DNA of 14,678 nt from DASVDK01 sp036381125 [NCBI: Thermodesulfobacteriota bacterium] (GTDB taxonomy: Bacteria; DASVDK01), in NCBI GenBank assembly GCA_036381125.1, contig DASVDK010000027.1:1-14678 (forward strand), given 5' to 3'. How positions within the stretch are numbered: the first letter of the stretch is position 1; each line of letters opens with the position of its first letter. Below are positions 5,168 through 13,065 of the stretch, in pieces. A program made the translations under genes and the position numbers. Under the pieces are notes generated by a model. It saw nothing but the letters and a program-made list of their open reading frames with translations, made no database searches and was not told where the DNA came from.

Positions 5168-5509
5168 CTAGGAGAGGTCGCGCTTGAGCGTCTCGAACTC
5201 CTCGCGCGTGATCTCGCCCGACGCGTGCCGGCGCCTGGCGATGTCGAGGGGCGTCTCGCGGTGCGGGGCGCGGCCCTGGGCCGCGAGCCAGCGGATCCCG
5301 TAGATCAGCGCCGCGATCACGACGATCCAGAAGAGGAGCATCACGAGGCCCATCCCGATGCCCCACATGCCCCACATGCCTGGCATGCCCCAGGGCCCGT
5401 CGGCGTAGGGACCGTAGTTCGGCTGGGCGGCGGCGGCGGCCGGCATCAGGCCGCCGATCCCGCCGAGAATCGCTCCGGCCGCTGACCCGGTTCGACGCAT
5501 CCCGATCAT
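5168..5509 (-). CDS. SHOCT-domain membrane protein with Met/Trp/Gly-rich segment
   Basis: The 113-residue product has an N-terminal hydrophobic segment (about 10-28, Ala-rich, possibly a signal peptide ending AAAAAQ) and a GMPGMWGMWGIGMG segment (41-54). A transmembrane helix runs about 54-76, and a C-terminal SHOCT domain at about 86-113 reads PLDIARRRHASGEITREEF. SHOCT domains are short oligomerisation-type modules at the ends of many bacterial membrane proteins. The Met-rich stretch could touch copper, but this is only an inference. Start choice is uncertain: ATGs at 5509 and 5500 are both in frame and neither has a good ribosome binding site. It is the first gene of the leftward cluster, divergent from the selenoprotein candidate. 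Confidence 0.82.
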   Translation of the reverse strand: MIGMRRTGSAAGAILGGIGGLMPAAAAAQPNYGPYADGPWGMPGMWGMWGIGMGLVMLLFWIVVIAALIYGIRWLAAQGRAPHRETPLDIARRRHASGEITREEFETLKRDLS

Positions 5510-5809
5510 GGCTCATTGTGACATTGCCGGGTCGGTTCTGGAACCGTAGCCGGACCCGGGAGCGGCTCCCTGGCAACCGGCTCCTTGCCCCGACCGGTCG
5601 AGGTCAGGGCCTTGCTGTCCACCCGGCTCGGCGGGACCGTGTCGACGGCTGCCCGGCGCCGGCGAGCGGCGGTATGCCCGGGCGTTCGACCCCGGTTCGA
5701 GGCGGCCTCGAGCCCGGAGGGGCCGCCGAAGCTCCGGCCGGCCCGCACGGCGGGAACCACGCGGCGCTCCCTGTTACCATGACGGCCGGTCACACGAGGA
5801 GGGCAGGGA
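5510..5809. other. 300-bp divergent intergenic region (SHOCT cluster / PCYCGC gene)
   Basis: No convincing gene is seen. It should hold promoters for both flanking directions. Visible structure includes a dyad CGGTTC-TG-GAACCG at 5533-5546 and a weaker GGGAG-CGG-CTCCC dyad just after it, close to the SHOCT start; either could be an operator. I could not identify well-matched -35/-10 pairs. Confidence 0.4.
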
Positions 5810-6319
5810 GTGACTCGCATCGGAAAGTCGCGGCGCGGCCGCGGGCGCACGTCGGGCGCCAGCCGGCGCCGGCTCCTCATCGCGGGCGCCGGGCTCGTCG
5901 CCGGGGGCGGGCTCGTCGCCGGCCTCTGGCCCTGGGAACCCGCCCGGACGTCGCACGCCTACACGCTCGCGCCGGAGTCGGTGCTCGACGCGCGGATCCG
6001 CCGCGCCCCGGCCAGGGTCCGCGAGGCCTACCGGTTCGCGGTGGCCAACCGCGAGCTGCTCAACAAGTTCCCCTGCTTCTGCGGCTGCTTCGAGCAGGAC
6101 GGCCATCGCGGCAACGCCGACTGCTACGTCGAGGACATCCGTCCCGACGGCTCGGTCGTGTTCGACTACATGAGCCTCGGCTGAGGGATCTGCATCGACA
6201 TCACGCGTGACGTGATGCGCCTCCTCGACAAAGGGACCCCGCTCAGGGAGATCCGGGCGTACATCGACGGCCGGTACGGGAGCTACGGCCCCTCGACGCC
6301 CACGCCGCCCGTCGAGTAA
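5810..6319 (+). CDS. PCYCGC-family Tat-exported protein, probable selenoprotein (UGA at codon 125)
   Basis: The frame opens at GTG 5810 behind AGGAGGG (5797-5803). It has a twin-arginine type N-terminus (SRRRLLIAG, 18-26, then a hydrophobic stretch) and the family hallmark PCFCGC at 88-93, with a further Cys at 105. It meets TGA at 6182-6184. Reading on in the same frame gives GICIDITRD, then a helical segment with LREIRAYIDGRYG, and a TAA at 6317-6319: 169 residues counting the recoded one. From memory of the PCYCGC family, homologs have Cys-x-x-Cys followed by hydrophobic-D-I and an EIR..ID..Y ending. The UGA falls on the first Cys, giving Sec-Gly-Ile-Cys (U125, C128). A SECIS-like stem-loop lies 21 nt beyond the UGA. 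I therefore annotate through the UGA; conventional callers would stop at 6184. Function of the family is unknown, but a redox-active Sec/Cys pair outside the membrane is inferred. The alternative is a Cys-to-stop lesion. Confidence 0.75.
6199..6217 (+). promoter_or_regulatory. Candidate bacterial SECIS stem-loop
   Basis: CAUCACG (6199-6205) pairs perfectly with CGUGAUG (6211-6217) around a five-base loop CGUGA. The loop begins 21 nt after the UGA at 6182-6184 and has a G in its second position. These properties match the general bacterial SECIS rules (short apical loop, early G, loop roughly 16-37 nt from UGA), the site recognised by SelB with Sec-tRNA. It lies within coding sequence, as bacterial SECIS elements do. 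Confidence 0.65.
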
Positions 6320-6349
6320 CGGCCCTCGGGCCGCCCGGGCCCTCCCGGC

Positions 6350-6463
6350 CATCCTGCGGCACGACTCGGCGCAGCGCCGGCAGGTGTCCGCGCAGACGCG
6401 GCCGTGCAGCGCCGACCCGCGCAGCATGAAGTCGGTGCTCGTCAGCCAGATCTGTGCACAGAG
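6350..6463 (-). pseudogene. Fragment of a four-helix-bundle Cys-rich copper-binding protein (DUF326 type)
   Basis: In one minus-strand frame, 38 codons read LCAQIWLTSTDFMLRGSALHG followed by a Cys-rich helix, CADTCRRCAESCRRM. This resembles two separate parts of DUF326/Csp-like copper-storage proteins: the CA-I-x(7)-FMLRGS-LHGR segment and the C-terminal C-x3-C-x2-C-x3-C helix, apparently joined by loss of the part between. No start codon, ribosome binding site or N-terminal helices are found upstream in any frame, and no stop follows. I read it as a remnant; chance similarity is possible because the segment is short. Confidence 0.5.
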
Positions 6464-6634
6464 TCGTCCTCCTGCGGTGAGCGGCGCCGGGTGGTAGGCG
6501 CCGCCCCCACGGCGCTGCACCGCGCGGGCCCCGATGTCGATTCCGGAGGGACCCGATCGACGTGACGGTAGAGGCGCCCCGCGCGGTCCGGACGGTGAAC
6601 GCGCAGGGCTCGCGGAGCCGAGGCACGTCCACTC

Positions 6635-6656
6635 GGGCCGATCGTGCGATCGGCCC
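6635..6656. repeat. Perfect 10-bp inverted repeat upstream of the VOC gene
   Basis: GGGCCGATCG-TG-CGATCGGCCC is a perfect dyad ending 32 bp before the GTG of the VOC protein. It could be an operator, or the stem of a transcript hairpin. No T-tract follows, so it is not a standard terminator. Confidence 0.55.
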
Positions 6657-6688
6657 AGGCGATATGAGCGATCCGCAATGGAGGCACC

Positions 6689-7183
6689 GTGACGGCGACG
6701 AAGGCCACGTCGAGGATCTACACGCATCTGTGGTACGCGAAGGAGGCCGAGGAGGCGGCGGCGTTCTACGCGTCGATCTTCCCGGATTCGCGGGTCGACC
6801 GGGTCTGGGCCCTGCCGGTCGACACGCCGAGCGGACCGGCCGGCTCCGTGAAGGTCGTCGACTTCACGCTCCTCGGCCAGCGCTTCCAGGCCATCACGGC
6901 CGGGCCCCATCACGAGTTCAACGACGCCGTCTCGCTCGTGGTGCCGTGCAAGGATCAGGCGGAGCTCGATCGGTACTGGAACGCGCTCCTCGAGGGGGGC
7001 GGCACGCCGCAGGCCTGCGGGTGGCTGATCGACCGCTTCGGTCTGAGGTGGCAGATCGTCCCGGCCGTTCTGGACGAGATGCTGCGCGACGGCGACCCCG
7101 CCCGGTCGCGCCGGGTTGCCGAGGCGATGCTGAAGATGGTGAAGCTCGACGTCGCCGCGATCGAGGCGGCGTACCGGTCGTGA
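6689..7183 (+). CDS. VOC-superfamily (PhnB-like, 3-demethylubiquinone methyltransferase-type fold) protein
   Basis: The 164-residue product has the PhnB-like glyoxalase/bleomycin-resistance superfamily pattern. This comprises LWYAKEAEEAAAFYASIFPDS near the N-terminus, FNDAVSLVVPCKDQAELDRYW in the middle, and CGWLIDRFGLRWQIVP at 110-125. Family members are small cytoplasmic beta-alpha-beta proteins, often annotated as 3-demethylubiquinone-9 3-methyltransferase without experimental proof, so no reaction is assigned. The GTG at 6689 has GGAGG at 6680-6684. Its stop (TGA 7181-7183) overlaps the GTG of an SDR remnant as GTGA, indicating a former operon. No lesion is visible, in contrast to its downstream neighbours. 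Confidence 0.88.
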   Translation: MTATKATSRIYTHLWYAKEAEEAAAFYASIFPDSRVDRVWALPVDTPSGPAGSVKVVDFTLLGQRFQAITAGPHHEFNDAVSLVVPCKDQAELDRYWNALLEGGGTPQACGWLIDRFGLRWQIVPAVLDEMLRDGDPARSRRVAEAMLKMVKLDVAAIEAAYRS

Positions 7184-9049: not shown

Positions 9050-9067
9050 GTGCCGGGATGCGGCCCC

Positions 9068-9471
9068 ATGAACGCCAGCAGGGCGACCGGCGTCCGCAGG
9101 CACATTCTCGACGTGGCGCAGCCGCTGCTCCTGCGCAAGGGCTTCACCGCGGTCGGCCTGGCCGAGGTGCTCGCGGCGGCCCAGGTGCCGAAGGGCTCCT
9201 TCTATCACTACTTCGGTTCCAAGGAGGCCTTCGGCGAGGCGATGCTCGAGGCCTACTTCGCCGACTACCTGGCGCGAATGGACGCGCTGCTGGCCCGGCC
9301 GGGCACGGCCGCCGAGCGGTTGATGGGCTACTTCCGTGACTGGCTCGACTCGCAGACCGGCGGCGAGACGCAGAGCCGTTGCCTCGCGGTCAAGCTCGGC
9401 GCGACCGCGCGCCCCTGGACACCGCGATGGCCAGCACGCGGCGGCTACTCGGCCTGACCCAGGACGCCTGA
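9068..9471 (+). pseudogene. TetR/AcrR-family regulator, internally deleted and frameshifted
   Basis: From ATG 9068 the frame encodes a good TetR N-terminal domain: RRHILDVAQPLLLRKGFTAVG, then the recognition helix region ending VPKGSFYHYFGSKEAFGEAML (40-60). The start of the ligand-binding domain follows, to CLAVKLGA (105-112). The frame then turns to ARPWTPRWPARGGYSA and stops at 9457. A second frame immediately after CLAVKLGA supplies PLDTAMASTRRLLGLTQDA with a TGA at 9469-9471, which looks like the normal C-terminus of this TetR type. About 50-60 residues plus the frame are missing between the two parts. DNA binding might survive in a truncated product, but ligand sensing and dimerisation should not. 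No good ribosome binding site is seen. Confidence 0.72.
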
Positions 9472-9535: not shown

Positions 9536-9639
9536 CAGCGTCGTCCGGCGCTCTGCCCGTCCCGCGCTCGCCCTTGCCCGCCCGCGCGCAAAGGCGGTCC
9601 GGCCGAATCTCCCGCACTGACATCACAGGAGCCAAGCGC

Positions 9640-10398
9640 ATGCCGCAACGTGACACCGTCAACCGCCGCATCGTCCTCGCCGCGCGCCCGCACGGTCTGC
9701 CGACGCCGCGCGATTTTCGCCTCGAGGAAGCCGCGATGCCGACGCCGGGCGAGGGGCAGGTGCTGCTGCGCACGCTGTACCTGTCGCTCGATCCGTACAT
9801 GCGCAACCTGATGGACGAAACCGGGCCGGCCTACGCGCCGTCGGTGAAGCTCGGCGAGATGGAGCGGCCGTCCCTGGCGCCGGGCGGGCTCGGCATACCC
9901 GCGTTCACCGCCTACGTCGGCCTGCCCGACATCGGCCGGCCCGAACCGGGCGAGACCGTGGTCGTGGCCGCGGCGACCGGAGCGGTCGGCGCGGTGGTCG
10001 GGCAGATCGCCAGGCTCAAGGGGGCGCGCGTGGTCGGCATCGCCGGCGGCGCCGAGAAGTGCCGCTACGCGGTCGAGGCGCTCGGCTTCGACGCCTGTCT
10101 CGACCGCCGCGATCCGCAACTCGCCGAGCGCCTCGCCGCCGCCTGTCCGGACGGCATCGACGTCTACTTCGAGAACGTCGGCGGCCCGGTGCTCGACGCG
10201 GTGCTCCCGCTGCTCAACGTCGGCGTGCGCGTGCCGGTGTGCGGCTTCATCTTCGACGCCTTCCGCCGCGACATGGGCGAGTGGATCGCCGCCGTCGATC
10301 CCGGCGCCGGACGCCGGGGGCCTCGAGGATCAGGCCGGGTCGGCCCGCCCGCCAACCGGGCGGCGACCGGACCGACCTCCTCGGCGAGGAGTACGTGA
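9640..10398 (+). pseudogene. MDR-family NADP-dependent oxidoreductase, internally deleted and 3'-truncated
   Basis: From ATG 9640 (CAGGAG at 9626-9631) the frame matches the leukotriene-B4-dehydrogenase-like/CurA type of medium-chain reductases. These comprise RRIVLAARPHGLPTPRDF, LYLSLDPYMR (46-55), the nucleotide-binding AATGAVGAVVGQIARLKG (111-128), GIAGGAEKCRYAVEALGFDAC and DGIDVYFENVGGPVLDAVLPLL. About 50 residues are missing near residue 75, where the family has the segment before GVLGMPAFTAYVGL. A second block is missing after VPVCG (202), joining it to FIFDAFRRDMGEWIAA. The last 30 codons are unrelated sequence, and the C-terminal GLLEGxNxGKLV part is absent. Total is 252 codons against about 335 normally. 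The operator in front suggests former TetR control. Confidence 0.7.
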
Positions 10399-12102: not shown

Positions 12103-13065
12103 GCGCGGTCAGGACGATCCTGTTCCTCTGCCCGGAATGGGGCTCGCGTTCATCCTGCCCTCGTTCCTCATGGTGGTCGCCCCGTCCTGGCTTTACGTGC
12201 GGTTCGGCGGCCTGTGGTGAATGCAGGCGCTCTTCTACGGCATCGGCGCGGGCGTCATTGGCATCGTCGCGATCGCCGCGTACAGGCTCGCCCGGCCGAC
12301 CAATCGACGTGATCCGTTGCTCTGGGGCATCTTCGTGGCACTCGCCGTCATCACGGTCCGGGCAGAGGCAGAGTTGGGCGAGTTCTTCATCCTCGCCGGG
12401 CTCATCGTCCTTCTCGCCCGGGCCACGCCGTCCTGGGTCAAGCGGTTGGCGACCTTCCGCGTGATATTGCCGGCCCCGCTCGCGTTGACCCTTGCGCCGG
12501 CCGCGCCGACCGGCGCCGTTCCGACGGAGGGCCTCCTGCTCCAGATCCTGCTCTTCTTGGCCGAGGCCGGCGCCTTCGTCTTCGGCAGCGGCCCGCCATC
12601 GTCGCCTTCCTCCATCAGGGCGTCGTGCAGCAGTACGGGTGGCTCACCGAGCACCAGTTCCTCGATGCCGTCGCGGTCGCCATGATCGCGCCGGGGCCTG
12701 TCGTCATAACGGTCGCCTTCATCGGCTACCTCGTCGCCGGTCTCACCGGGTCGGTCGTTGCCGCGCTCGGGATCTTCTCGCCGGTCTGCCTGTTCACGGT
12801 CGTCTCGGCCCCCTGGTTCCGGCGGCGTCGCGACAGCCCGCAACTCAAGGCGTTCGTCCAGGGGGCCACCGCGGCGACGACGGGCGCGATCAGCGGGGCG
12901 GTGATCATCCTCGCCGGTCGCGCGATCATCGACCTTCCGACCGCGGCGATCGCGCTCGGTAGCTTGGCGCTGCTGTGGCGGCTCAAGGTGCCTGAGCCGC
13001 TCCTGGTCCAGGCGGCGGGCGCGGCCGGACTGGTGCTGTGGCCGCTGATACACGGAGCCGGGTAG
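12099..13065 (+). pseudogene. chrA: Chromate transporter ChrA, broken
   Basis: The ATG at 12099 overlaps the previous stop and gives MSAVRTILFLCP. Then the frame changes to LPGMGLAFILPSFLMVVAPSW, LYVRFGGLW, a TGA at 12218-12220, and MQALFYGIGAGVIGIVAIAAY (12221 on). Helices continue to GAFVFGSG (about 12592). One base is then missing, and the other frame carries AIVAFLHQGVVQQYGW, the hallmark MIAPGPVVITVAFIGYLVAG, LKAFVQGATAATTGAI and the last helices to TAG 13063-13065. These are ChrA (CHR family) inner-membrane chromate/sulfate antiporter sequences. About 100 N-terminal residues are lacking. The TGA stands where homologs have Trp (GGLPWMQ), so it is best read as TGG-to-TGA. With three lesions the pump should be inactive; if these were sequencing errors, only the N-terminal loss would remain. 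Confidence 0.82.

Follow-up and report, generated by a model that had tools for sequence, protein, structure and literature searches.

A very probable long-type selenoprotein of the PCYCGC (OS_HP4) family with a possibly CcmH-like fold

Background

In its accessible part, a 2026 review (PMC13188914) lists a CYCXC family protein, the hypothetical protein OS_HP4, with the domain PF13798 and a UxxC motif, traces it to the 2007 paper of Zhang and Gladyshev, with an Olavius algarvensis symbiont as the source, and reports a Methylomirabilota MAG in which 63 selenoproteins are predicted. OS_HP4 with UxxC is also listed in the part of PMC9312934 consulted, the corresponding part of PMC13068155 describes a PCYCGC lipoprotein as having no assigned function, and the name OS_HP4 does not occur in the accessible part of PMC2398784. 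An earlier note on the locus described here did not know of this family as a listed selenoprotein; that remark does not hold, since the OS_HP4/CYCXC entry of the review makes the family a known one. The open-licence literature, judged mostly from the listed hits, yielded nothing tying the PCYCGC/OS_HP4 family to CcmH or copper, and no account of a CcmH-type selenoprotein was found there.

The NCBI curated model NF041379 (OS_HP4 / CYCXC) is homologous to the gene over the domain (E 2.9e-16), with UxxC and CxCxC-H-C in both, and it matches all 98 aligned members at E up to 0.001. Its cut-off of 90 bits is not reached by our sequence (59.3), by six other long UGA-type sequences (55-73) or by a Bacillota Cys form (79.5), whereas the three short-type members tested (124-131) lie above it. 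Compared with the short type of NF041379, the long type carries an additional segment between C105 and U125 and a hairpin that is placed differently, and the long-type branch to which our gene belongs is beyond the reach of that model. The PF13798 (lipo)proteins of Bacillota, which are exported lipoproteins by annotation, share the domain but have Cys where our protein would have selenocysteine (Sec); the Priestia copy, unlike ours, is without the first Cys of PCYCGC and without the His.

CcmH / NrfF (PF03918) is a more distant comparison. The predicted helix arrangement may resemble the three-helix fold of CcmH, and the last helix and R-Y-G end align, but the protein has no PF03918 match up to E 1 and its set of Cys is larger than that of CcmH. 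We take CcmH to carry RCxxC after its first helix, as is present in L199; at that place our protein has PCFCGC instead, and UxxC opens its second long helix in the model. An ordinary CcmH gene exists besides in 85 of the 95 Rokubacteria-phylum genomes searched.

In this paper, we report a comparative analysis of a gene at 5810-6319 of the window, by which we mean the whole stretch of 14,678 nucleotides that was analysed. We put the probability that this gene inserts Sec at UGA 6182-6184 at roughly 0.93, as judged from sequence comparison, and the gene is very probably a new member, in the long-type branch, of the listed selenoprotein family.

Genomes and alignments

The term Rokubacteria phylum is used here for the 95 genomes searched from the phylum of G001 (Candidatus Rokubacteria), which we take to be the Methylomirabilota of GTDB. 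The second phylum is represented by a sample of 400 genomes and is the one to which the Anaerolineae genome G005 belongs (Chloroflexota). Alignment A1 holds the window sequence and 97 of the 113 non-redundant members, with L058 and L149 outside it. Alignment A2 holds 15 rows picked for variety after the pairing result was known; its covariation counts therefore lean upward, and the unselected count is the one over 100 rows.

The gene and its domain

The features of the gene, all on the forward strand, are as follows.

5797..5802, +: AGGAGG, a likely ribosome binding site, inferred from the sequence and preceding the GTG start
5810..6319, +: PCYCGC-family gene, very probably for a selenoprotein; GTG start, TAA stop, 169 residues, Sec expected at 125
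5861..5935, +: Tat-like signal or anchor, SRRRLLIAG and a hydrophobic stretch (motif scan)
5981..6307, +: PF13798 domain, residues 58-166 (Pfam match)
6071..6088, +: PCFCGC motif with C89, C91 and C93, all three invariant in 98 aligned sequences
6104..6106, +: H99, invariant in 98 aligned sequences
6122..6124, +: C105, invariant in 98 aligned sequences
6182..6184, +: in-frame UGA, probably read as selenocysteine U125 (frame and family comparison)
6191..6193, +: C128, the partner Cys of U-x-x-C, invariant in 98 aligned sequences
6199..6217, +: hairpin of bacterial SECIS type, in which 6199-6205 pairs with 6211-6217 around the loop CGUGA at 6206-6210

The UGA at 6182-6184 is the sole internal stop in the frame, and the 169-codon frame that the earlier note had read through it was borne out in its positions, including PCFCGC, U-G-I-C and the TAA. 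The same note had taken the tail after the UGA for part of the same family, and the PF13798 profile indeed runs across the UGA from residue 58 to 166 with 100.3 bits (E 1.2e-28), passing the cut-off of 25. It had also called the protein Tat-exported: the Tat-like motif is there, and export is suggested by this motif scan, for which we applied what we take to be the Tat motif rule. By a simple rule the motif occurs in the window sequence and in 36 of 100 other UGA rows, and a lipobox-like motif was seen in 24 of 31 Cys or other rows versus 11 of 101 UGA rows. A search of the entire window against Rfam at gathering scores returned zero matches, and promoter-like or terminator-like sites were not found within 5500-6700.

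The codon at position 125 among relatives

A first contig scan gave 16 loci, from one Rokubacteria genome and 15 Chloroflexi or Chloroflexi-class genomes, in which the codon opposite U125 was TGA in six, TGC or TGT in nine and CGA in one. Searches of the two phyla extended this picture. There are 81 PCYCGC matches in 70 of the 95 Rokubacteria-phylum genomes (one of the 81 scores below the family cut-off); every match contains one or more TGA codons, and in the alignment all 81 rows have TGA exactly at site 125; the second phylum has 41 matches in 37 of 400 genomes, 15 of them with a TGA inside. In the joint alignment of 137 rows, site 125 is TGA in 103, TGC or TGT in 32 and CGA in two, both CGA rows being one locus taken twice, and five duplicate or near-duplicate rows were dropped from later counts. 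The Cys that the earlier note expected opposite U125 is thus found, and so are the close relatives with UGA or a Cys codon at this site; an in-frame UGA with Cys in homologues, as looked for in a bacterial selenoprotein, is what the 32 Cys and 103 UGA rows of 137 present.

A tree of 131 rows, with 62 of its 128 inner branches open, places our gene in a group made up of 12 rows with Sec and one with Arg (support 86, not starred), close to a Rokubacteria-phylum sequence and the Thermomicrobium roseum group. The Sec state is clustered on the tree, with 11 changes against a shuffled mean of 29.6. A DNA search found window fragments in 70 of the 95 Rokubacteria-phylum genomes, at 66-78% identity among the matches listed and with no match at species level; the window sequence likely sits near this phylum, the only one that the DNA comparison covered.

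Some members of the family depart from the common form. The CGA stands at the Sec codon of L010 6001-6444 (Chloroflexi, G010), which retains an intact hairpin and whose genome encodes both SelB and tRNA-Sec. We rejected a recoding of CGA, since tRNA-Sec in G010 carries the anticodon UCA; it is likelier that Sec changed to Arg or that the sequence is in error, and either is possible. L058 (G025) reads PCYCGL, having lost one Cys, and has a second in-frame TGA; it is perhaps decaying. The short type (L106, L140, L116 and 33 other rows) lacks the segment that separates C105 from U in the long type; it occurs in the Rokubacteria phylum, always with UGA and with the hairpin placed differently, and long and short types are found together in some genomes, for example G020.

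The hairpin downstream of the UGA

The SECIS-like stem with loop CGUGA that the earlier note had pointed out is present, starting about 15 nt past the UGA. Over six stem pairs, and with one short row excluded and the one CGA row kept apart, pairing was 0.868 in 100 UGA rows versus 0.699 after synonymous shuffling (sd 0.013; maximum of 300 shuffles 0.738), and 0.661 versus 0.655 in 30 Cys rows. The comparison argues that the hairpin is under selection in the UGA genes only.

Counted from the U of UGA, nucleotides 19-24 pair with 30-35 in 98.9% of cells among 61 distinct long-type UGA sequences. The short-type rows are paired in 66.7% of cells in the long-type register and in 85.6% when the 3' side is slid by +2, from which it follows that their hairpin lies differently. 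Codon choice in the long-type hairpin differs from that in the rest of the genes: among the 64 long-type UGA rows that have Arg in the loop, 52 use CGU and 12 use CGG, whereas for Arg elsewhere in those genes CGC is commonest (250 of 562) and CGU makes up 40 of 562. The p value for the CGU enrichment (52/64 vs 40/562), 7e-39, is not a true probability, as the sequences are related. In long-type rows Val is encoded by GUG in 60 of 60 cases and Thr by ACG in 60 of 61.

Two-sided changes that keep the pairing, of which L014, L066 and L061 give examples, number 57 cells in register versus 0-36 when slid by 1-3 over all rows, much of the 57 being a single step between the long and short types, and 8 in register versus 0-3 slid within the long-type rows only. 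The mean folding-energy z against synonymous shuffles is -1.7 for long UGA, -2.0 for short UGA and -0.2 for Cys rows. Taken singly, the window hairpin is unremarkable (z -0.9 to -1.4), and the full 48-nt stretch by itself favours a different fold; a SECIS hairpin under selection is accordingly seen in the comparison, with the lone window sequence unremarkable, and it is through comparison among relatives only that the hairpin becomes convincing as a putative signal.

Selenocysteine machinery in the genomes of relatives

Among the first 16 genomes, SelB was above the cut-off of the profile search in 12 and tRNA-Sec scored more than 66 bits in 14, the two exceptions for tRNA-Sec being G006, a UGA-bearer with a 47-bit match, and G008, a Cys-bearer. 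Four of the six first UGA-bearers were above the SelB cut-off, with weak or C-terminal SelB pieces only in G005 and G011. In the Rokubacteria phylum tRNA-Sec was found in 79 and SelB in 83 of 95 genomes. The earlier note had held that a genome without selB and selC would speak against Sec; put to the relatives, the question finds tRNA-Sec in 60, SelB in 63 and both in 58 of the 70 PCYCGC-positive Rokubacteria-phylum genomes, and at least one of them in 65.

In the second phylum, tRNA-Sec is present in 32 of 35 carriers (the 37 less G005 and G010, which are counted among the first 16), made up of 13 of the 14 with UGA and 19 of the 21 with Cys. Because it is common in these Cys-bearers too, and is found in 19 of 25 PCYCGC-negative Rokubacteria-phylum genomes too, the machinery fits the presence of Sec and discriminates nothing. 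The anticodon was UCA in the six tRNA-Sec loci read. Two genomes have a second tRNA-Sec-like gene of 57.9 bits beside the normal one (G050:C49:3626-3723 and G051:C18:9326-9423).

Insertion of Sec, the central claim of the earlier note, is thus corroborated by UGA in 103 and a Cys codon in 32 of 137 rows, by the selected hairpin and by Sec machinery in most carrier genomes. On this reading the ribosome would decode UGA 6182-6184 as selenocysteine by means of SelB, tRNA-Sec(UCA) and the hairpin that lies within the coding region at 6199-6217, and the product would be a full-length, exported PCYCGC-family selenoprotein.

Conserved residues and predicted fold

C89, C91, C93, H99, C105 and C128 are invariant among the 98 aligned sequences and position 125 is nearly so. 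A few members outside the alignment deviate, namely L058, without the third motif Cys, L149, without Cys at 128 in frame, and Priestia L231, without the first motif Cys and the His. The earlier note had proposed a redox role for U125/C128; the conservation of U or C at 125, of C128 and of the other five residues makes it plausible, the few deviating members outside the alignment notwithstanding.

The AlphaFold model of the window protein has a mean pLDDT of 82.8, and from residue 51 the ten-residue blocks are mostly above 90, the lowest at 80. Helices are predicted at 68-79, 126-140 and 145-159, with U125 immediately ahead of the second. The mature domain would accordingly be a small helical protein in which U125-x-x-C128 opens the second long helix and the conserved C89, C91, C93, H99 and C105 lie in the stretch ahead of it.

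Searched with Foldseek, this model ranked CcmH structures first and second (E 0.67 and 1.7), and VIA-align gave Z 5.0 over 73 residues and 3.9 against CcmH, with a MerR protein tied with the latter at 3.8. An AlphaFold model of a short-type member, built from a different but overlapping alignment, again placed CcmH entries first and second (Foldseek E 2.0 and 2.7; Z 5.9 and 5.1), with a designed protein higher at 6.4. Values of Z from 3.9 to 5.9 between small helical proteins can be due to chance. At the level of sequence, the family profile aligned locally with 30 CcmH sequences over 24 columns at a probability of 49% and E 1.7e-4, with an hhalign score of 32.0 that none of 150 column-shuffled decoys reached; this local alignment is the informative one, the global hhalign alignment of the family with CcmH having been discarded as meaningless. 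A PDB sequence search with the family profile gave nothing credible (best E 0.021). Distant kinship of the PCYCGC family with CcmH is likely but unproven, and we give even odds to a CcmH-like fold of the modelled protein.

Gene neighbours and possible role

The gene is flanked in the window by genes for SHOCT, DUF1232 and 3-dmu-9_3-mt proteins and itself has no copper or cytochrome neighbour. Over 115 contexts, the largest neighbour clusters were those of a polyferredoxin (23 contexts), of COX2 and cytochrome c proteins (21), of a thiamine-diphosphate enzyme (20), of heavy-metal ATPase-type proteins (19), of a protein that Pfam does not match (17) and of redoxins (16). A nearest same-strand gene exists in 98 of 113 contexts, two near-copies having been dropped from 115, and 15 have none. 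With six near-copy neighbour genes left out, 144 of 150 such genes were scanned: the thiamine-diphosphate enzyme was commonest (21), followed by AhpC-TSA (13), E1-E2 ATPase (11, with HMA in 10), Fer4_5 (10), cupredoxin (7), cytochrome c (6), COX2 (6), YHS (5) and SCO1 (3).

In a set of 38 loci chosen partly for known redoxin or COX2-type neighbours, with Sec and Cys forms mixed, the 111 genes included AhpC-TSA (14), COX2 (11), cytochrome c (9), Fer4_5 (8) and SCO1 (6). Among 65 control genes AhpC-TSA, ATPase, Fer4_5, cupredoxin, cytochrome c, COX2 and SCO1 each had fewer than two members (best 25 of 60 families); this control is small, comprising 65 of 77 genes, three of them SelB, from loci originally fetched for other reasons. 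The neighbour pattern suggests copper and cytochrome c. The commonest neighbour, the thiamine-diphosphate enzyme with 21 of 144, does not fit such a role, and the role was graded lower because the unselected neighbour count is weaker than that in the chosen loci. In many Rokubacteria-phylum loci (L160, L164, L165, L173 and others) the thiamine-diphosphate enzyme follows the gene, in 20 of 115 contexts, and in loci of the same kind a 166-residue protein without Pfam match precedes the PCYCGC gene, in 17 of 115.

Plasmid neighbourhoods were viewed for four copies out of 17 records. The Paenibacillus and Exiguobacterium copies lie near heavy-metal P-type ATPases, the latter with a multicopper oxidase and a copper-binding protein close by too, and the T. 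roseum and Priestia copies have no copper or cytochrome neighbour in the viewed context. All three Bacillota homologues have Cys at the Sec site.

The protein might work as an extracytoplasmic selenol/thiol-disulfide reductase or metal-thiol chaperone with a CcmH-like fold, and its clients might be CuA and the copper sites of multicopper oxidases, or else cytochrome c. We advance a role in copper or cytochrome assembly tentatively, at less than even odds. The fuller proposal, which we hold to be rather unlikely as a whole, is that PCYCGC/OS_HP4 would belong to the CcmH superfamily as a remote branch whose Cys/Sec/His site is enlarged, and that its Sec form would be a phylum-wide Rokubacteria selenoenzyme keeping the cysteines of copper sites or cytochrome c reduced outside the membrane. 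If true, the Sec form would be a selenoprotein of CcmH type, and copper or cytochrome c assembly by a CcmH-like fold would be a concrete hypothesis for a family that the consulted part of PMC13188914 lists as hypothetical.

The selenoprotein could instead be a chaperone or sensor of copper or another metal rather than a reductase, with CxCxC-H-C-UxxC binding the metal and Sec tuning it. Seven conserved Cys/Sec/His residues would suit such a site, as would the heavy-metal ATPase, cupredoxin, COX2 and SCO1 neighbours and the fact that, of the four Bacillota/Thermomicrobiota plasmid copies viewed, two have heavy-metal P-type ATPases close by and one of these two has a multicopper oxidase and a copper-binding protein in its vicinity as well. 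UxxC at the start of a helix is however a common redox arrangement, and redoxin-fold and CcdA-type genes are neighbours also; we regard this alternative as a real possibility that nevertheless falls short of an even chance. Detoxification of extracellular peroxide or other oxidants, with no link to copper or cytochromes, is improbable: Sec often serves peroxide reduction and a ferritin-like protein is among the window genes, but the window protein has no peroxidase domain match in Pfam and the genes next to its relatives suggest copper and cytochrome c instead.

Alternatives to selenocysteine at the UGA

If the UGA were a true stop, the product would have 124 residues and the remainder would be a relic. 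UGA does terminate seven of the 11 other window frames checked, so that the window uses the ordinary genetic code, and a code with UGA for Trp was rejected on the same count. A frame of 44 codons, moreover, stays open by chance with a probability of about 0.60 at the base composition and stop density of the window, which makes the open frame weak evidence alone; the case for the tail is made by its homology and GC3. C128, which is invariant in 98 aligned sequences, falls in the tail, as does the C-terminal portion of the Pfam domain, and GC3 is 0.97 upstream of the UGA and still 0.95 downstream, near-equal values that favour a single gene.

Annotation has in one instance taken the codon for a stop. 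In Thermomicrobium roseum DSM 5159, whose gene is on the plasmid NC_011961.1 (L229 4863-5350), RefSeq ended WP_012642643.1 (locus 5180) at the in-frame UGA, and the C-terminal part of the family lies beyond. The frame continues there through U106, with the same hairpin as in our gene, ATCACG-CGTGA-CGTGAT; a search for tRNA-Sec that covered this plasmid did not find one. Since annotation stops at the Sec codon, the UxxC part is absent from at least this RefSeq record of a branch annotated "PCYCGC motif-containing (lipo)protein", and T. roseum offers a named strain for testing an uncharacterised selenoprotein family. With UGA at exactly site 125 in 103 of 137 rows and a hairpin selected there only, a true stop is very unlikely.

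A sequencing error, with TGC or TGT misread as TGA, is scarcely credible: elsewhere in the window the chromate transporter, TetR and oxidoreductase genes seem to be broken or cut short, so that the assembly may carry errors, but those breaks look like changes of frame where codon 125 would presumably need a substitution, and the identical TGA with its hairpin recurs in many separate genomes.

Other genes of the window

A TetR-like gene (9050-9457) and a zinc-binding dehydrogenase gene (9574-10398) look truncated, which may reflect assembly frameshifts. The chromate transporter at 12221-13065 is matched in two overlapping frames, weakly at 12221-12682 and strongly at 12625-13062, and may be a broken gene, as the matches fall in two different frames. 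Two ChrB-type genes lie upstream of it.
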